Source: Candidatus Poribacteria bacterium
GTDB taxonomy: Bacteria; Poribacteria; WGA-4E; WGA-3G
Direction of reading: 5' to 3'
Length of the DNA stretch: 64,000 nt
Assembly (NCBI GenBank): GCA_026706025.1
Contig: JAPOZO010000075.1
Coordinates: 1 to 64,000, forward strand
Shown here piece after piece: positions 49,876 through 59,594 of the stretch; the stretch's first letter is position 1, and each line of letters starts with the position of its first letter. A program made the translations under genes and the position numbers. The notes beneath the pieces are model-generated. The model did not search any database and was not told where the DNA came from. It was given only the letters and a program-made list of their open reading frames with translations.

Positions 49876-51285
49876 TTATGATCTACGATAAAAAATACGT
49901 ATCGGTGTGCCGTGGAATCCGAATTCTCTGCGAATATTGTTGACGAGGTATGCTTCATACGGTTGACCGACCCGGTTTACGTTTCGTCCGAAGATAAGAA
50001 ACGTCGGTGGTTTCGTCTCAACTTGCGTAATGTATTTCAGCGCGGGACGTACACCTTTGACACGTGGTGGCGGATGCGCGTTGCGTAATTCCAGCAGTAA
50101 TTCGTTAAGCGCGGGTGTCGGGATATGCGTGCAATACTCTCGATGAACTTCTAAGGCTGTCGTTAGTATTTGGGTAACGCGTTGCCCCGTGGCAGCAGAG
50201 ACGAAGACACGTGGCACATAATCGAGTTGCGGGAGTTGGATGTCAAGTTTATCCATAAACGCCGGGTGTGTTGCGTTATCCTTTTCAATCAGGTCCCATT
50301 TATTCATGACTAAAACAGAGGCTTTGCCTTGTCGTTCAATGAACTTGGCGATAGCCTTATCTTGTTGTGCTGCCTCTTGGGTTACATCCAGTACGAGAAC
50401 AGCAATATCGCTTTGGCGGATACTATGTATGGCGCGTTTGACAGTTGCGGATTCGAGTTCGTCGTTGATCGCCGATTTGCGGCGCATTCCGGCTGTGTCA
50501 ACGATTTCAAAGGGGATATTGTCGTGAACGATTTGGATATTCACAGCGTCGCGCGTCGTGCCGGGTCGGTCATCAACGATCATTCGCTCTTCACCGAGTA
50601 GGTTGTTGATAAGTGAGGATTTTCCGACGTTGGGTCTGCCGACAATCGCGATTTTTATGGTGCTGGATGTATCGTATAGTGTCTCGTCGGTTTCCGGTAG
50701 GCTGTCTACGACAAGGTCAAGGAGTTCTCGAATCCCATCGTTTTGAACGCACGATGTCCATATCGGTTCTGGGAATCCGAGTGCGTAGAACTCTGCGGCT
50801 TCATTACGGAACCGTTCGGTATCTACCTTGTTGACGACGAGGAAGATGGGTTTATCGGTTGCCCTGAGTTTATCGGCGACGGTTCTATCGTGTGGCATGA
50901 TACCGGTTCGAGCGTCAACAACGAACAGTATAAGGCTTGCTTCATCCAAAGCGGCATCTACTTGCGATTGGACGTTATCGATAAGCCGATCGTCCGGATC
51001 AATGTCTAATCCGCCGGTATCAACGATGGTAAAAGCGCGGTCTTCCCATTCAACATCTGCGTAATTCCTGTCGCGCGTTACACCCGGTGTATCATGGACG
51101 ACAGCGAATTTACGAGGCATTCTCGTTTTTTTTATGTTGCGCGGTTTGTCGCTCGTTTCAGTTTCGGCATCGTCGTATGTGTAAGGCAGCGTTATGGGTG
51201 CCGATGCAGTGATTCTATTGAAGAGCGATGATTTCCCGACGTTGGGTCTGCCGACAATCGCAACAATGGGGCATCTGGTTTCCAT
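49876..51285 (-). CDS. der: Ribosome assembly GTPase Der (EngA)
   Basis: A 469-residue protein with two GTPase domains and a C-terminal KH-like domain. G1 motifs are GRPNVGKSSLFNR (from residue 12) and GRPNVGKSSLINN; G3 motifs are DTGGLDIDPDD and DTAGMRRKSAINDELE; G4 motifs are NKVD and NKWD. Acts in 50S subunit maturation and is normally essential. The first domain has an insertion of about 30 residues (PYTYDDAETETSDKPRNIKK) between G1 and the switch I segment TPGVTRDRNY, absent from typical Der. The start at 51285 follows AAGGA; ten more codons are open upstream. Confidence 0.96.
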   Translation of the reverse strand: METRCPIVAIVGRPNVGKSSLFNRITASAPITLPYTYDDAETETSDKPRNIKKTRMPRKFAVVHDTPGVTRDRNYADVEWEDRAFTIVDTGGLDIDPDDRLIDNVQSQVDAALDEASLILFVVDARTGIMPHDRTVADKLRATDKPIFLVVNKVDTERFRNEAAEFYALGFPEPIWTSCVQNDGIRELLDLVVDSLPETDETLYDTSSTIKIAIVGRPNVGKSSLINNLLGEERMIVDDRPGTTRDAVNIQIVHDNIPFEIVDTAGMRRKSAINDELESATVKRAIHSIRQSDIAVLVLDVTQEAAQQDKAIAKFIERQGKASVLVMNKWDLIEKDNATHPAFMDKLDIQLPQLDYVPRVFVSAATGQRVTQILTTALEVHREYCTHIPTPALNELLLELRNAHPPPRVKGVRPALKYITQVETKPPTFLIFGRNVNRVGQPYEAYLVNNIRREFGFHGTPIRIFYRRS

Positions 51286-51358
51286 TTTTTGTATTTCCTT
51301 GCGGATAAGTTCCACTGTTGGTTACTTGACAATTTTCGCGTTACCAGCGAAACCACAA

Positions 51359-53671
51359 TTAGGTTGGCTTTCCAAGCGTCGTTTTGTCACCGGAAACGGC
51401 AATAACCGATTTTATCACAACAATGGTAGGAATTGCAAGCAATACTCCCCAAAAACCGAGTACGGCTGCACCGACAATAACGGCGAACATAATCAGCAAC
51501 GGGTCTACATCAATGGCATCGCTCATGATTTTTGGGGAGATGAGCGAATTGTCAATTGCCTGAATACCGAGGATGGCACCCAACACAAATGCGCAGCGAA
51601 CGAGGAAATCAATCTCCCCGAAATCTCCGGCTGCCAACCCCATGAGCATGGCTACAAACGCGAAAGCACCACCGATAAAGGGTCCGAAGGTCGGTATAGC
51701 ATTACAGATACCGGCAAGTATACCGATAACTAAAGCGAAGGGAACACCTATGACACTGTAAGCAATGGAGGAAATTATCGAGACGATTGCGATGACTGTG
51801 ACAAGTCCTCTTAGAAACTCTTGTAAATTCTTGTCAATTTCACGCAGATATGCTTTGGCAGCGTCCCGATGCGTTTCAGGCACGAGCGTGAGGAAACTCC
51901 TGAAATAATTATCAAACGATTGGTTGGCGTACACAAACACGATGAGTGCGAGGGACAGAGTCGCTAAAAAACCGCCAAAGCCAAAAGCGATTGAACTTGT
52001 GAACTGAAATATTTCTCTGACAGCCTCGCCGCCGGTTTGTGCAATTGTCGGTATTCGTTCCGTCAAATACGATTTTGCCTGTTCAACGATAGGTTGGTCC
52101 TCATAGGCGTGGCTAATGCCTTCCCTGTATGTCGTAAACGTTCGCCATCTGGCGGTGGAAGTAGTGCGATGCCAGATAGCAGTGCTGTTACCAACGTATA
52201 CCCCAGAAGGTGCAGAGGCTAACAGTGGGGTTGCTGGTGCCCCAGAAATTACAGGTGTCCTTTCCGTTTTTAGCCAGTCATGACGATTCCATCCATGGAG
52301 TCCATCCGGAGTGTTCGCATATAATTCGATTGCGCTGTCATTTGTGTCACCTGTTGTATCATCGCCACCTGCCAGAGCATAAACTTCCTTTTTTATTTCA
52401 GTGAGTTTTTCCCATCCGAGGGAAGAACCTTTTAGGTGCCAATGCACTATCGTGATTATAGATGAGGTGTTCGTCTGTCGTGAAGTGGTTTCCGCTTCGG
52501 TTTTCTTCGATGTAGGTGTGGTGTCTGTCTGCTCTGACTGCTCTGAAGGTACCGCATCAACTTCCGCTGCTGTAGTTTGGATTTCTTCCTGTTCTAAGGG
52601 AATTTCCGCGTCCATCTGCCTTGTACTGGCGACGTAGGTTACGCGATCACCATTGGTATCTGTAGTAGAGATGATACTCACAACAGACCTGCCGCTATAA
52701 ATGTTAGGCGCGACCGGGTTCCATGTTTCGCCTGCGTCGTTACTTGCGTAAAGTCCTTTCTGTGTTCCGACGTAAATCTGTGTATCATCCCAGTGTGGAA
52801 CGTTGATGGCTTGGATAGACAGTGTATCAAAAGGGGTGTCTTCCACTTTATGCCATACCTGTGTTGAACTTGCGTCGTTTTCGTCAGCAGGTGGTGTTTT
52901 ATAGTAGCGATATAACCCACTTTGCGTGCCAGCGTAGATAATGTTTTCACTCGCTGTAAGTACTTGTATCGGTTTACCGAGGAGCCCACCGTTGGTGATA
53001 CCGATAGGGGAAAGTTTCCCTTCAGTGTTTGGTCGCATTTCATAGATCCCGTGGTTCGTGCCGAGATAAAACGTTTCTGTGGGCGGGGATTTCTCGTTGT
53101 TTTCGGTAACTTCGTCTTCATCAGCACGCGAATTAACACTGATAGCGACTGCTGTAAAGGTTTCACCGATAGCGTGCGGCAGAACAGTTTCATGGTAAAA
53201 CTTCAGTAACCCAACTCCCATCTGGCTGGCTTGTCTACTCACCTGTTTGCCGGTATAGAAAAGCACGCCGCCACAGACGAGCACAATCACAGTGGTTGCG
53301 ATGCCGCGTTGGTATTGCTTTTTGAATGGGAGCGCGTTCCAGAGGAACCTGAAGACGTAAGCGAAACCGAACCCCAAAATGAAAGGCATCAGGACACCCA
53401 ACAAGCGTATAAAAACCCAGACGCTTATCATTATGATTTCCAGTATAACGATGCTTCTTATATCGATCCAACGATAGATACGCGTGAGCAACACAATCAG
53501 CAATATCGGGACTACCGGATGTAGTAGCATCGTTCGACTGCCGTTGGAACTGTTGCCTTTGTAATAAGCGAAAGCGATCCATACAGCAGCGAGTACGACG
53601 CTGATGATTGCGAGAATTGTTGCACCGTTGAGTACCGGTTTTTGTGGGTTCGGTTCGTTTTGTGTGTTCAT
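51359..53671 (-). CDS. AI-2E/PerM-type permease with a beta-propeller-like insertion
   Basis: A 770-residue membrane protein. The C-terminal 220 residues are a classic AI-2E transporter half (FRSFLTLVPETHRDAAKAYLREIDKNLQEFLRG, then IGVPFALVIGILAGICNAIPTFGPFIGGAF and DNSLISPKIM, ending GVLLAIPTIVVIK). The N-terminal 160 residues supply the first membrane helices (LLGVLMPFILGFGFAYVFRFLWNAL). Between them, about 180-520, lies a large soluble region of repeated blades: YLGTNHGIYEMRP, IYAGTQSGLYRYY, IYVGTQKGLYASNDAGETWNPV and VTYVASTRQ. These are sialidase/BNR-like (Asp-box) repeats, expected to be extracytoplasmic. Normal AI-2E proteins are about 350 residues. The direction of transport and the solute are unknown. 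It leads the der operon (gap 73 bases to the der ATG). Confidence 0.85.
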   Translation of the reverse strand: MNTQNEPNPQKPVLNGATILAIISVVLAAVWIAFAYYKGNSSNGSRTMLLHPVVPILLIVLLTRIYRWIDIRSIVILEIIMISVWVFIRLLGVLMPFILGFGFAYVFRFLWNALPFKKQYQRGIATTVIVLVCGGVLFYTGKQVSRQASQMGVGLLKFYHETVLPHAIGETFTAVAISVNSRADEDEVTENNEKSPPTETFYLGTNHGIYEMRPNTEGKLSPIGITNGGLLGKPIQVLTASENIIYAGTQSGLYRYYKTPPADENDASSTQVWHKVEDTPFDTLSIQAINVPHWDDTQIYVGTQKGLYASNDAGETWNPVAPNIYSGRSVVSIISTTDTNGDRVTYVASTRQMDAEIPLEQEEIQTTAAEVDAVPSEQSEQTDTTPTSKKTEAETTSRQTNTSSIITIVHWHLKGSSLGWEKLTEIKKEVYALAGGDDTTGDTNDSAIELYANTPDGLHGWNRHDWLKTERTPVISGAPATPLLASAPSGVYVGNSTAIWHRTTSTARWRTFTTYREGISHAYEDQPIVEQAKSYLTERIPTIAQTGGEAVREIFQFTSSIAFGFGGFLATLSLALIVFVYANQSFDNYFRSFLTLVPETHRDAAKAYLREIDKNLQEFLRGLVTVIAIVSIISSIAYSVIGVPFALVIGILAGICNAIPTFGPFIGGAFAFVAMLMGLAAGDFGEIDFLVRCAFVLGAILGIQAIDNSLISPKIMSDAIDVDPLLIMFAVIVGAAVLGFWGVLLAIPTIVVIKSVIAVSGDKTTLGKPT

Positions 53672-53807: not shown

Positions 53808-55406
53808 TTACGATGTTGCTGGCACTTCGGTTGCATTTCCGTCTCTGGATTCATACGCCTCGATTACGCCTGCGCCGATGCTGTCGCCCCAGACGTTAAC
53901 TGTGGTACGGAACCGGTCGAGTAGCCAATCAATAGAGAGAATAAGTGTTATACCCTCAACTGGAAGATCTACGGCTCTCAGTACAATAACCATTGTGACG
54001 AGGCCCGCTTCTGGGATTCCTGCAGCACCGATGGCTGCCAATGTCGCGGTCAGCACGACGACCACCTGTTGTGCTGGATCCATGGAGATCGCATAGACTT
54101 GGGCGATAAACATGACAGCGACGGCTTCATAAAGCGCAGTGCCATCCATATTAATGGTTGCTCCCAACGGAAGCACAAAACTGGAAGTCCGGCTGGAGAC
54201 ACCGTTCTGATTCTCGACCCCTTCCATCGTTAGCGGGAGGGTTGCGCTGGAACTTGCTGTCGAAAAGGCGTTGAGTAAAGCGGTTGCCATGCCTCTGAAG
54301 TAGTTCAGCGGATTTCTGCGTGCAAGCAACAGAAGCAGGATTGGTAAAGCAATAGCACCGTGTACGCCGAGCCCTAAGACGACTGTCGCACTGTACTTGC
54401 CCACGGCGACGAGTTCGGGCCAGAAACCCGCAAATCCTTTTGCCTCGCCAATCCTGCCTGCGATTAAACCGAAGATACCGAGCGGTGCGACATACATGAT
54501 CCAGTGAACGAGTTTCATCACCGCCTCATTTAGCCCCGAAATCACAGCGACGACCGGTTTGCCAATATCACCCAACATGGATAAAGCGGCACCAATGAGA
54601 AGCGAGAAAAAGATTAAAGGCAAAATGTCGGTATGCACCATCGCTTTGAAGACGTTTGACGGGATCATCCCCTCTTTACCTGTCTCTTCGTTGCCGAGGA
54701 ATACCTCTTTGATGGTGCTGCCCATCGTCTTTTCCATTTTGCCGGACACGCTTGTGGCAATCGGTAGGTTGATGTTAACGCCTGCACCTGTGTTTTGGGG
54801 TTCTATCGTCTCAAGACGACCCTCAATGAATAATAGGCGTTCACCGGTGTCTGTTGTGACGTAACGCGCATCCTCCGATAACGGTTGCCACGACTCCACT
54901 GTGGCTGTTGTCCCGGAAATTGATTTCACTTCGCCACGTAGGTTTTGATCGGCGAGCGTGATGACGTATTTATTGTTATATGTCCGATTGAATTCGCCGC
55001 TCATCTCAACAGTGAGCATCTCGGTGCCAGACAATGTGTAACTCAGATCAGGACGTTCTTCACCTTGTGATAGCCCTTTTCCCGGCGAGATGATGTTCAC
55101 AAGAATCATCCCGATAATAACGGAGATGGCGGTTGTTGCCATATAATACAGGACGGTTCGTCCGCCGATGGAACCGATGTTGCGGATGTCGCCTAAATTG
55201 GTTATCCCAACGATCATAGACAGGACAACAAGCGGGACGACGATCATCTTCAAGAGGTTTAAGAATACTTCACCGAGTATCGTTGTGTGGACTGCGAAGT
55301 CTGGTGCGTAACCACCGATAATTGCACCGGCAACAATCGCAATGATAATTCCGTAAAGCAGCCCGAGGCTAACTTTCGGTTTCTGTTCGTTTTCATTTTC
55401 ATTCAT
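53808..55406 (-). CDS. Dicarboxylate/amino acid:cation symporter (SDF family) with insertion
   Basis: A 532-residue GltP/DctA-type secondary transporter. Hallmarks are LKMIVVPLVVLSMIVGITNLGDIRNIGSIGG, the Ser-rich hairpin FSTASSSATLPLTMEG, GATINMDGTALYEAVAVMFIAQV and the final SIDWLLDRFRTTVNVWGDSIGAGVIE. It moves C4-dicarboxylates, glutamate or aspartate with Na+ or H+. Family members have about 420 residues. Here some 110 extra polar residues (about 120-235, TLSGTEMLTVEMSG to GKEGMIPSN) lie between membrane helices, with a small beta domain (VKSISGTTATVESW). AGGAG precedes the ATG. It is flanked by repeat elements on both sides. Confidence 0.93.
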   Translation of the reverse strand: MNENENEQKPKVSLGLLYGIIIAIVAGAIIGGYAPDFAVHTTILGEVFLNLLKMIVVPLVVLSMIVGITNLGDIRNIGSIGGRTVLYYMATTAISVIIGMILVNIISPGKGLSQGEERPDLSYTLSGTEMLTVEMSGEFNRTYNNKYVITLADQNLRGEVKSISGTTATVESWQPLSEDARYVTTDTGERLLFIEGRLETIEPQNTGAGVNINLPIATSVSGKMEKTMGSTIKEVFLGNEETGKEGMIPSNVFKAMVHTDILPLIFFSLLIGAALSMLGDIGKPVVAVISGLNEAVMKLVHWIMYVAPLGIFGLIAGRIGEAKGFAGFWPELVAVGKYSATVVLGLGVHGAIALPILLLLLARRNPLNYFRGMATALLNAFSTASSSATLPLTMEGVENQNGVSSRTSSFVLPLGATINMDGTALYEAVAVMFIAQVYAISMDPAQQVVVVLTATLAAIGAAGIPEAGLVTMVIVLRAVDLPVEGITLILSIDWLLDRFRTTVNVWGDSIGAGVIEAYESRDGNATEVPATS

Positions 55407-55517: not shown

Positions 55518-58500
55518 TTACTTGCGTATCAGCATTTTTTTGGTGGCGTTAAAATCGCCTGCTGTAACGGAGTCGCGTGTGGACTCCGTGGACAATGTAT
55601 AGAAGTAGACACCACTTGCGACTGATTCACCGACTTCGTTTTTGCCGTCCCAATACGCGGCACGGGTGCGGGTTTGGTAGATGCCAGCGGGTTGATGCCC
55701 TAATTTTAATGTTCGGACCAAGGTCCCGTTCACAGAATAGATGGTCAGGATAACTTCTGCCGGTTCAGCGAGTTGATACGGTATCCATGTCTCTGGGTTA
55801 AAGGGGTTTGGATAATTGTGAAGTAATGCGGTTTCTTCCGGGATGAACAGTGTTAAGAGTCGTTCAAGATTGGCGATGCCTTGTTGGAAGGTAATGGATC
55901 CATCACCTTCAATTTGTGCTTGTGTTATCCATGCTTGTATCATTGCTGGGTCTAATAAATCTAAGTCGTTTATAGCAATAGCGGAAGGTGCTGCAGCGTC
56001 GGTTGATTCACCGAGATGTTGTGCGACGAGGATGAGGTCTTGGATGTTAATAGTTCCATCCCGATTGACATCTACTTGCGGATTGATAGACGCATCTTCA
56101 CCGAGGTGCCGAGAGACAAGGATTAGATCCAGGACACTCACCTGTCCATCTCGGTTTACGTCTCCGGTAGCAAGTTGTCCTTCTATCGTGAAAACTACCT
56201 TGTGGGGACCCGCAGGAATGCTATCACCCGTGATAGAACCTAATTGGAAGTTTTCCAGCATTATTTGGGTTTCGCCACCTTCCTTCGCTGTGAATGTCAC
56301 TGACAGCAGTGTACCTGTCCCGGTGACACCGTCTTCGTTGAGCCTCGCTGAACTCAGTTTGCTAATCTTGCCTGTAGCGTTATCAATTGTTCCTTTTTGG
56401 AAGAAGGTCGTTCCGCCGCCTTCCTTGAGAAAATCGCCTTCATTGACCTCAACTGTTTCAAGTACTGATGGATCAAAAGCAATATCAAATTGCCAGCCTG
56501 CTAAATCAAATACATTCTCTGCGTTGACCTCAAGGGTGAAAGTATCCCCGGCATGAATATTAGACTCGGAAAAGGTATAACCTACACTCGGATTCTCCAC
56601 CATATATTCCGTGCTAGGTGCAAATCCAGCAAAGAAACTTATTGCCCTATAGGTTTTATACACATGACTCACTAACAACACGTTCTTCCCTTTTTGCAAT
56701 GTGATAGGGAAAAAATCCTGATAATCAGAATTCCATGTTTCACTATCAATATAGTGTGGATAATTGTAGACTAACGCGCCATTGAGCCAAACTTTGCGAG
56801 GGAACTCACCTGCACCTATGAACATTTTCGTCTGCTGTATTCGTGGAGAATATAAGGTAATGGAAGCATAAATAACAACCAAACCTGATTTATTTTCAAT
56901 GGACATCAATCGCCGAAGGTTATCAAGGTTACTATCAGATTCATTCGGATTATAATTATAAGGCTCAAGGGTACCTGATAACCATACGTTATCACCAATG
57001 CTATCGCCCGCCGTTACCCCGAGGGTAGCAATCTGTTGCTCTGTAACCTTCCCATCAGATGCTTCTGCCAAATAATCTACACCTGTATCCGAGTAATAAA
57101 AACTATTGTTAGGTTTTGGTAACTGTAACCATAACCAGGGGCCATCAATTTTGGGGCCATCTTGTGGATAGCCGGGGTTTTTATGCCATTTGAAGACCTC
57201 CAAGTTTTCGCGTATACCGTCTAAGGGCGAGATATCATCTATGTTATTGGAATTAAGGAGGAGCGTTTTCAAATTGTGTAAGGAGGCGAGTGGTGAGACA
57301 TCTGTAATGCGATTGAAGCTTAGATTTAGCGTTTCTAAGCTGTGTAAGGAGGCGAGTGGTGAGACATCTACAATGTTGTTTTCGTTTAGTATGAGCGTTT
57401 CTAAGTTTATCAAGCCAGCGAGCATTGAGATATCCGAGGTTCTATTGTTGAAAAGGTCGAGATGTTTCAAATTGGTCAACCCTGCCAGCGGTGAATAGTC
57501 TGATATCCCTTTAACATATCGAAAACCGAGCCAGGTGAGTTTCGTTAAACTTCTTAAAGGTGAAATATCGGTTACACGGCTGGCATATAAGTTAAGGCGC
57601 GTTAAGTTTGTCAATCCTGCAAGGGGTGAAATATCGGATATATCAGTTTTTATGGTATCTAATTTTCTCAGTTTCGTGAGCCCTGCCAAGGGCGCAAGGT
57701 TTGATATATGGGCATCCTCAATCCATATCTCTTCTAAATTGGCAGCGTGCTCAATGCCTGTTAAATTTTTAATGTCCCTATCACTTGTGCTTAGGGTTGT
57801 TAATGTTGCCATATCTTCAAGTGTAATCGGAACAGTATCAGCATCCTCCTTCCCAAGTGCTTCGGCAATTACCGCGCGGAGGTTTGGATCTGGAATGTCA
57901 ACAGACTCTCCGGGAATGAGTTCTGGACGCTGCACAACTGGAGGCAGGGTGCTATCAGGCGTATTCAGCGCGGAAATCATATCGTCAAAGTTAGACGTCC
58001 AGGCATCCCGTTTTATAGTCCCATTTTCTAACACCTGCAATCCTAAGTTTTGTAAACTCACATTCTTACGAATTTTTCCAAGGAATACCCCGGTCTCTAA
58101 ACCGACAGCAGCTGCAGCGTGTGAAGCGTCAAGTGGTGCTTGAAACGCTTCATGGAACCGCTGAACAGGTTCAATACCGCCAAATACATCGCCTGTTGCT
58201 TCAAGTGCCTGTCGGTAACGGTCAGTGTCCTCTTCGATGAGCCCATCCATCACTGTTTTTTCAACATAAAGCCGCAACGCGCGATCTTTGTCAAACGGTG
58301 GGTTCTCGTTCTGTTCAACAACACCCCGCACTTGATCTTCAAACGTCTTCATACCTTCGGTATGACACCCAATACAAGAGAGTCCGTTACGGACAGTCGG
58401 ATCGCTCGCCGCAGGGTTGGAAACGATGCTTATCGGTGCTTCATTCAGCCGATTGCCACCGGCATCTGATAGATAATATGCCTGTAAGCCGTTTGGTAGA

Positions 58501-59594
58501 TTGAAGATAACCTCACCACCGTCGTGTGTAAAATCAAGTGGATGTGTAAGGATGTTCTGTGTGCCGACACTTCCAGCAAAGTCGTAACTCTTCCAATACG
58601 CGCCGTATCGAGAGAGGTGCCGTTCTACAATACGGTTGTGATTGGAGACACCGGAATCGTTGAACCCGGCACGCCAGACGCGTCTTCCTGGGGCATTTCG
58701 GATATTTTCAACTACATTCACCTCAAGACGTGTCTCCAACTCCCGATCTGTTAGTGGGAGATCAAGGAGATCGTGGTAGAGTGGCGGCAGTGAAGCGGTC
58801 GCAAGAAACCAGTCTACATGGACAAATGGCACCTCGCAACTCATTTCTTGGCGAAGATTCGTTAGTTTTTCATGGAGTGCTGTCTGTGTCAGTGCGTTGA
58901 ACTCAACTTTATAGGGATATTCCGTTTCAATTAGCGTCCATCGGTTGGTGCCGATCTCCCATTCATAGTCTCGGAGGTCAATATAGAAGATTGTTGCTTG
59001 TGAATCGATGGGCTGCGGTTTGGTAACCTCGCGTCCCCAAGAGAGACTATTCACAAGTTTTGAGAGTGCCCGTTGGTACGCGCGGAGGGTCTCTGTTGTT
59101 TCGCCTGCGTTATAGAGATGTGTCGATGTAAAATAGCGTGCGAAGGCGCGGTCGAATGTATCGAGCGATTGGACATGGTTCTCAATCGTCTGCAGCATTT
59201 CTTCGGTTGTGATGAAGTTGATGTCGGTTCTGGCAGCAGTATTCCAGTCCGGCGCGCCTGCTTGAATCCATTGTCGGATCGTCTGAATCGCTGCAGGAGG
59301 TAAGGGTGGCTGTCCGAGCGGCATCCGTTTTTCTACAGCGGTTTCGATTAACCGTTGATAGAATATGGAATTATCAGGGTTTCCGGGAATAACTTTCCCG
59401 GTATTAATCAACCCTTGGCTGCTTTGAATGATGAGTTGCTCGGTAAAGGAGCCGTGTGGTCCATGGCAAATGAGGCAGCTTTGTTCAAATATGGCGGATA
59501 CCTCCTGCGCGAGGTTTTCTTGGGCATCAACACTCTGGTATGTTGTCATGAATATTAATACACAGACGGGTACAACAAAGATCCTCCATTCCAT
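55518..59594 (-). CDS. Surface protein: cytochrome c / LRR / cohesin / dockerin / FlgD-like module
   Basis: A 1358-residue exported protein. It has a signal peptide (MEWRIFVVPVCVLIFMTTYQSVDA), then a planctomycete-cytochrome-C-like domain with haem motif CLICH (40-44) and the MPLGQPPLPPAAIQTIRQWIQAGAPDW end. Further on is a second CxxCH (CIGCH, 407-411). Residues 590-820 hold about nine internalin-type LRRs (NLTRLNLYASRVTDISPL). Residues about 860-1010 form a beta-sandwich (WLSGTLEPYN, KVWLNGALVYN). At 1015-1150 is a cohesin-like domain (AGDTFTLEVNAENVFDLAGWQFDIAFDPSVLETVEVNEGDFL), followed by a two-repeat type I dockerin (DVNRDGQVSVLDLILVSRHLG and DVNRDGTINIQDLILVAQHLG). The C-terminal module is NYPNPFNPETWIPYQLAEPAEV to KKMLIRK. 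Cohesin and dockerin in one chain could drive self-assembly on the cell surface; haem suggests redox. A paralogue starts beyond the window at 64 kb. Confidence 0.92.
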   Translation of the reverse strand: MEWRIFVVPVCVLIFMTTYQSVDAQENLAQEVSAIFEQSCLICHGPHGSFTEQLIIQSSQGLINTGKVIPGNPDNSIFYQRLIETAVEKRMPLGQPPLPPAAIQTIRQWIQAGAPDWNTAARTDINFITTEEMLQTIENHVQSLDTFDRAFARYFTSTHLYNAGETTETLRAYQRALSKLVNSLSWGREVTKPQPIDSQATIFYIDLRDYEWEIGTNRWTLIETEYPYKVEFNALTQTALHEKLTNLRQEMSCEVPFVHVDWFLATASLPPLYHDLLDLPLTDRELETRLEVNVVENIRNAPGRRVWRAGFNDSGVSNHNRIVERHLSRYGAYWKSYDFAGSVGTQNILTHPLDFTHDGGEVIFNLPNGLQAYYLSDAGGNRLNEAPISIVSNPAASDPTVRNGLSCIGCHTEGMKTFEDQVRGVVEQNENPPFDKDRALRLYVEKTVMDGLIEEDTDRYRQALEATGDVFGGIEPVQRFHEAFQAPLDASHAAAAVGLETGVFLGKIRKNVSLQNLGLQVLENGTIKRDAWTSNFDDMISALNTPDSTLPPVVQRPELIPGESVDIPDPNLRAVIAEALGKEDADTVPITLEDMATLTTLSTSDRDIKNLTGIEHAANLEEIWIEDAHISNLAPLAGLTKLRKLDTIKTDISDISPLAGLTNLTRLNLYASRVTDISPLRSLTKLTWLGFRYVKGISDYSPLAGLTNLKHLDLFNNRTSDISMLAGLINLETLILNENNIVDVSPLASLHSLETLNLSFNRITDVSPLASLHNLKTLLLNSNNIDDISPLDGIRENLEVFKWHKNPGYPQDGPKIDGPWLWLQLPKPNNSFYYSDTGVDYLAEASDGKVTEQQIATLGVTAGDSIGDNVWLSGTLEPYNYNPNESDSNLDNLRRLMSIENKSGLVVIYASITLYSPRIQQTKMFIGAGEFPRKVWLNGALVYNYPHYIDSETWNSDYQDFFPITLQKGKNVLLVSHVYKTYRAISFFAGFAPSTEYMVENPSVGYTFSESNIHAGDTFTLEVNAENVFDLAGWQFDIAFDPSVLETVEVNEGDFLKEGGGTTFFQKGTIDNATGKISKLSSARLNEDGVTGTGTLLSVTFTAKEGGETQIMLENFQLGSITGDSIPAGPHKVVFTIEGQLATGDVNRDGQVSVLDLILVSRHLGEDASINPQVDVNRDGTINIQDLILVAQHLGESTDAAAPSAIAINDLDLLDPAMIQAWITQAQIEGDGSITFQQGIANLERLLTLFIPEETALLHNYPNPFNPETWIPYQLAEPAEVILTIYSVNGTLVRTLKLGHQPAGIYQTRTRAAYWDGKNEVGESVASGVYFYTLSTESTRDSVTAGDFNATKKMLIRK

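Follow-up and report, generated by a model that had tools for sequence, protein, structure and literature searches.

An AI-2E family transporter of Poribacteria with a predicted six-bladed beta-propeller that seems to be exchanged between lineages

We found that Poribacteria, a phylum known chiefly from marine sponges, encode an AI-2E family transporter with a predicted beta-propeller built into its core, and comparison of gene trees indicates that the propeller seems to be exchanged between lineages as a cassette, apart from the rest of the gene. The gene was analysed in 64,000 nucleotides of one such genome (GCA_026706025.1, contig JAPOZO010000075.1, positions 1 to 64,000; hereafter the window). 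The gene, the predicted parts of its product and the two neighbouring genes are as follows.

51359..53671, minus strand: AI-2E permease with inserted propeller, whole gene; 770 aa, ATG start (open reading frame; Pfam PF01594, E = 7.5e-38)
53222..53671, minus strand: N-terminal membrane part, residues 1-150 (AF2 helices, hydropathy, alignment with propeller-less orthologs)
53159..53245, minus strand: first stalk helix of the extracytoplasmic loop, residues 143-171 (AF2; common to propeller-less orthologs)
52130..53158, minus strand: inserted six-bladed beta-propeller, residues 172-514, about 343 residues (AF2, Foldseek)
53000..53158, minus strand: blade 1, residues 172-224 (AF2 strands)
52847..52969, minus strand: blade 2, residues 235-275 (AF2 strands)
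52712..52816, minus strand: blade 3, residues 286-320, with the Asp-box SNDAGETW (AF2, sequence)
52721..52744, minus strand: Asp-box SNDAGETW, residues 310-317 (sequence, alignment)
52403..52690, minus strand: blade 4, residues 328-423, broken by a disordered linker (AF2)
52460..52609, minus strand: low-confidence Glu/Ser/Thr-rich linker in blade 4, residues 355-404 (pLDDT <50; several orthologs are without it)
52268..52384, minus strand: blade 5, residues 430-468 (AF2 strands)
52130..52225, minus strand: blade 6, residues 483-514 (AF2 strands)
52022..52096, minus strand: second stalk helix, residues 526-550 (AF2; common to propeller-less orthologs)
51362..52024, minus strand: C-terminal AI-2E membrane core, residues 550-770 (Pfam)
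53808..55406, minus strand: SDF (sodium:dicarboxylate symporter), upstream neighbour and synteny anchor (synteny)
49876..51315, minus strand: Der/EngA GTPase, downstream neighbour and synteny anchor (synteny)

The initial annotation had called the product an AI-2E-type permease and had given no strand. The identity was borne out by Pfam, and the gene was assigned to the minus strand; on the plus strand of 51359-53671, stops interrupt the reading. AI-2E_transport (PF01594) was the sole family found in the 770-aa protein, in two stretches of which the better covered residues 550-758, and the profile score of 131 bits was well over the curated cut-off of 34.3. In L073, an ortholog lacking the propeller, profile positions 5-325 were aligned in one piece. 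Hydropathy and the AF2 helices showed a single chain of N-terminal helices, extracytoplasmic loop and C-terminal helix bundle, as in AI-2E proteins. The first AI-2E helices, at residues 71-113 (a kinked pair) and 118-142, all precede the loop, and residues 16-38 and 53-68 form an extra N-terminal helix pair beyond the AI-2E plan. The protein therefore shares with the AI-2E/UPF0118 family (PF01594; E. coli TqsA, 7nb6) the N- and C-terminal membrane parts, the profile match and the loop helices beside the insertion site, but differs in the added helix pair and in the 343-residue loop propeller, the nearest propeller-less loops having about 50-80 residues. A profile search of the source assembly (6.27 Mb, 103 contigs) revealed no second AI-2E gene at the cut-off used. 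The family as such is nearly universal, 13 of the 14 reference genomes having it. The gene upstream of the SDF symporter (55518-59594, minus strand) encodes a 1358-aa protein with leucine-rich repeats and cohesin, dockerin and FlgD-Ig domains, and most close relatives have a related protein at this position.

The segment that separates the membrane parts had been described as a beta-propeller-like domain with some 340 residues of YxGTxxGLY and Asp-box-like repeats. It corresponds to residues 172-514. A loose pattern of the YxGTxxGLY type was matched at residues 201, 245, 299, 450 and 491, and none of 5000 shuffles of the insert reached five matches (mean 0.02, maximum 2); the Asp-box is the SNDAGETW of blade 3. 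When the window protein was modelled by AF2 with 27 orthologs, six blades were predicted and the pLDDT of the propeller block was mostly 75-92 outside the linker; the membrane part was of low confidence and unusable. The insert of L062, the most compact ortholog (275 aa), was modelled with a mean pLDDT of 81 and a pTM of 0.82, and its 24 strands were arranged in six four-stranded blades. The best Foldseek matches in the PDB were all propeller proteins, namely the periplasmic sensor propellers of BT4673 and BT4663, Ycf48 and LRP6 (E about 1e-8; TM 0.59-0.67, by query length), and the sequence profile of the insert matched BT4673 (E 3.6e-5) and a BNR protein (E 6.6e-5). A search of a viral structure library matched only generic propellers. 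The profile search suggested in the initial annotation held for AI-2E_transport and not for the repeats: scans of the insert against the BNR/Asp-box, PSII_BNR and Sortilin-Vps10 families of Pfam were weak (best E about 6e-4) and below the curated cut-off where one was shown. Structural modelling confirmed that residues 172-514 are predicted to form a true beta-propeller built into the AI-2E core.

Both the best sequence-profile match and the best structural match of the insert were Reg_prop HTCS sensors (BT4673, 3ott/3va6; BT4663, 4a2l), which share the YxGTxxGLY motif and the extracytoplasmic placement. Their ectodomains are far larger, whereas the window protein has one six-bladed propeller on a transporter and no kinase; with PF01594 alone in the protein and no histidine kinase, it does not follow the plan of a hybrid two-component sensor. 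Ycf48/PSII_BNR (5ojp, 5ojr) has the same Asp-box propeller fold at a comparable size (TM about 0.55-0.59), but Ycf48 is a stand-alone assembly factor, and the similarity of the insert to this family is under the Pfam cut-off.

For UPF0118 proteins, PhoA fusion located the N-terminus in the cytoplasm (PMC7221264). In the window protein, the basic loop ALPFKKQY precedes the last helix, and the loop domain itself is acidic (31 K+R versus 53 D+E). Given a cytoplasmic N-terminus, as in UPF0118, and the basic loop inside, we infer that the propeller lies on the extracytoplasmic side, which supports the placement originally proposed. The structure entry of E. coli TqsA (7nb6) holds five chains, and by analogy the window protein is probably a pentamer.

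The distribution of the architecture was assessed in related genomes. Some 60 Poribacteria genomes, of which five are single-contig assemblies, carried the same intact frame, and named Poribacteria MAGs matched at up to 92% identity. It was full-length in 54 of the 57 family f1 genomes with a match, the remaining 3 being cut by contig ends. Both genomes of f2 and three of f4 likewise had the propeller-bearing frame, which in one of the f4 genomes is truncated at a contig end. An assembly fusion of two genes, which the initial annotation had considered together with a survey of domain order, is therefore ruled out. Orthologs of family f3, another family of the order (L073-L075; G059, G062 and G064), have a plain loop of 73-80 residues instead of the propeller, and are 56-60% identical to the propeller-bearing protein in the C-terminal core. 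In G059, the order SDF symporter, AI-2E, Der is kept, providing a natural empty site, and in G075, a class-level relative, the AI-2E-Der pair is kept with a loop of 52-59 residues. The insertion point lies between two loop helices that are also present in the propeller-less orthologs. Such a syntenic ortholog pair, of which one member has the large ectodomain and the other does not, allows the role of the AI-2E loop to be tested directly. The best topology of the core tree needs two changes (for example, one loss in f3); a single gain was not rejected (p-AU 0.37). The trees thus fit one gain of the propeller, and independent repeated gains are not needed.

Family f4 also has a second AI-2E paralog (L088-L092, in G063, G066, G069, G071 and G070), whose loop of 101-153 residues is not a propeller; in the genomes of genus g8, this paralog was the only AI-2E protein recovered in the search for relatives. 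PF01594 surveys of three other phyla (4, 40 and 61 genomes, about 105 in total) yielded a few longer frames, with no loop propeller in those that were read. Three of the longest PF01594 frames in one of these phyla (566-624 aa) were read and were without a propeller, and a 736-aa frame had a profile match of normal length, so that its extra length probably falls outside the loop. The initial annotation knew of no described family with this insertion; likewise, a joining of AI-2E and propeller was not found in the literature searched, most subscription journals and UniProt architectures being outside that search.

The evolution of the insert was compared with that of the core. The insert evolves faster: in the closest pairs of the window's genus, identity was 0.84-0.98 in the core and 0.60-0.90 in the insert. 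The dN/dS was about 0.1 for the core and 0.2-0.3 for the insert, indicating purifying selection. Loop entropy was 1.61 in the A-B and C-D loops, which lie on one face, versus 1.23 in the B-C and D-A loops (Mann-Whitney p 0.004), and the A-B/C-D loops also had the maximum dN/dS of any region (0.46). As no region had a dN/dS >1, positive selection was rejected, and some of the variability could be due to relaxed constraint.

The propeller and its surroundings gave conflicting trees. In genus g3, core and flanking genes united L022, L023 and L070 (core identity 90-91%; neighbour tree 99/98) and placed L066/L067 near L026/L027/L030 (core tree 98/95). In the insert tree, L022 joined L024/L025 (98/97), and L023/L070 joined L066/L067 (100/100). 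In AU tests, for which the groups were chosen after the trees had been seen, the insert data rejected L022 with L070 (p 6e-6) and L066/L067 with L026 (p 1e-33), and the g3 neighbour data rejected the groups of the insert (p 1e-9 and 4e-5). L053, of the window's own genus (g1), shares 94% identity in the neighbours and 95% in the core with the window's locus, and its propeller groups with L041/L042; the AU p values, for groups chosen in the same way, were 2e-4 on the insert, 7e-71 on the neighbours and 0.007 on the core. Its identity profile is a mosaic in which the closest partner switches near residue 130 and back near 480-520. Since the insert tree contradicts the core and flanking-gene trees and the mosaic breakpoints lie near the insert edges, the propeller seems to have moved as a cassette. 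The exchange may not be special to the propeller, the trees having been compared at this locus only. That the propeller appears to be a fast-evolving, recombining cassette is a point beyond the view taken in the initial annotation.

The apparent exchange of the ectodomain suggests that an external ligand or partner differs from strain to strain. We tentatively favour, as plausible though somewhat short of probable, the reading that the propeller is an exchangeable extracytoplasmic recognition or gating domain, arranged as a pentamer ring, for a strain-variable ligand or partner. By analogy with TqsA, the inner-membrane AI-2E pore would be a pentamer with five propellers ringing its outer mouth. 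Each propeller would bind a ligand or partner in the periplasm or at the surface, and by doing so capture cargo for the pore or gate it; if that ligand or partner differs between strains, the propeller would be exchanged and the transport core would stay fixed. A narrower proposal, which we regard as possible but doubtful, is that homologous recombination in the conserved flanks replaces one propeller type by another and leaves the pore in place, so that what is recognised, be it a ligand, partner, phage or host molecule, would be specific to the strain.

The propeller might instead serve as a scaffold or envelope anchor, keeping the transporter beside other periplasmic proteins, peptidoglycan or polysaccharide and taking no part in cargo selection or gating. 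Ycf48, which binds a peptide of its partner, and LRP6 were among the best structural matches, conserved catalytic residues are absent, and the syntenic short-loop orthologs keep the same core, all of which would suit an anchor; however, exchange between strains and a variable face are not obviously needed by one, unless its partner varies too, and we consider this reading rather unlikely. It is still less probable that the propeller is a hypervariable surface target whose exchange provides escape from phages, bacteriocins or host lectins. The discordant insert tree between a conserved core and conserved flanks and the faster A-B and C-D loops are what such a target would show, but dN/dS is <1 in all regions and AI-2E is a cytoplasmic-membrane family, so that the domain would sit behind any outer membrane. 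A nearly neutral passenger, that is, a propeller that was once captured, folds without harm in a loop that tolerates it and is subject to drift, would account for the f3 orthologs lacking it and for an insert evolving faster than the core; purifying selection on the insert and the intact frames and fold motifs retained in all families having the propeller make this quite improbable.

The initial annotation had also allowed for an enzyme domain, and here the data point the other way. Across 18 divergent propeller-bearing orthologs, the residues kept are of the structural type (Gly, Thr, Tyr, Trp, Pro, Ser, Ala, Phe and aliphatics), with the exception of H207, kept in 16 of the 18, and neither the acid/base pair nor the Arg triad of a sialidase/GH74 catalytic set is conserved. 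An extracytoplasmic enzyme processing the cargo (a BNR glycosidase, sialidase or GH74-like protein) is therefore very improbable, even though GH74 and BNR glycosyl-hydrolase structures were among the Foldseek and profile matches, because no Asp/Glu/Arg catalytic set is conserved and the sequence similarity is limited to the blade motifs.

Two activities known for the AI-2E family were considered for the transporter and rejected. None of 83 Poribacteria genomes gave a match to LuxS (PF02664), whereas the same search found it in 5 of 14 control genomes. LuxS-made AI-2 is therefore an unlikely cargo, and the protein was not taken as an AI-2 exporter in the strict sense; AI-2 export is the function on which the family was founded, and not every member has it. 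The Na+/H+ antiporter group of AI-2E (UPF0118) has the signature E179-R182-K215-Q217-D251-R292-R293-E296-K298-S307 (PMC7221264). In a by-eye alignment of the window protein, signature residues were missing (D251 to N657, R292 to N708, R293 to S709, E296 to S712 and Q217 to L623), and a Na+/H+ antiporter was rejected.

Relatives of the propeller were also found in the same and related genomes, where the best non-orthologous profile matches of the insert were about 1000 aa in length, apart from a few of some 330-350 aa. Two of the large matches were read, and each is an ECF-type sigma factor with a single membrane helix and, across the membrane, a propeller. These sigma factor-propeller fusions of the source genome (for example, the G000:C3 frames of 1028-1079 aa) are among the closest in-genome relatives of the insert, and they too combine a propeller outside the membrane with a cytoplasmic partner domain; they differ in that the effector is a sigma factor and the propeller is C-terminal, versus inserted in a transporter. 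The same kind of propeller thus serves in these genomes as an outer domain coupled to an effector on the inner side, and the transporter is in this way connected with the sigma factor-propeller proteins of its own genome; that the insert descended from one of them is a guess. ECF57 sigma factors with WD40-like C-terminal extensions have been described (PMC8999054). In the source genome, the order ECF-type sigma factor, helix and large C-terminal beta-propeller occurs on contigs C3, C56 and others (L003, L004, L005 and L006), and Sigma70_r2 had 83 matches, more than half of them in frames >400 aa and many near 1000 aa. A stand-alone 339-aa Asp-box propeller, Sortilin/PSII_BNR-like and related to blade 3 of the insert, is encoded at about 104860-105060 of G000:C63 (L002 796-1815, minus strand).
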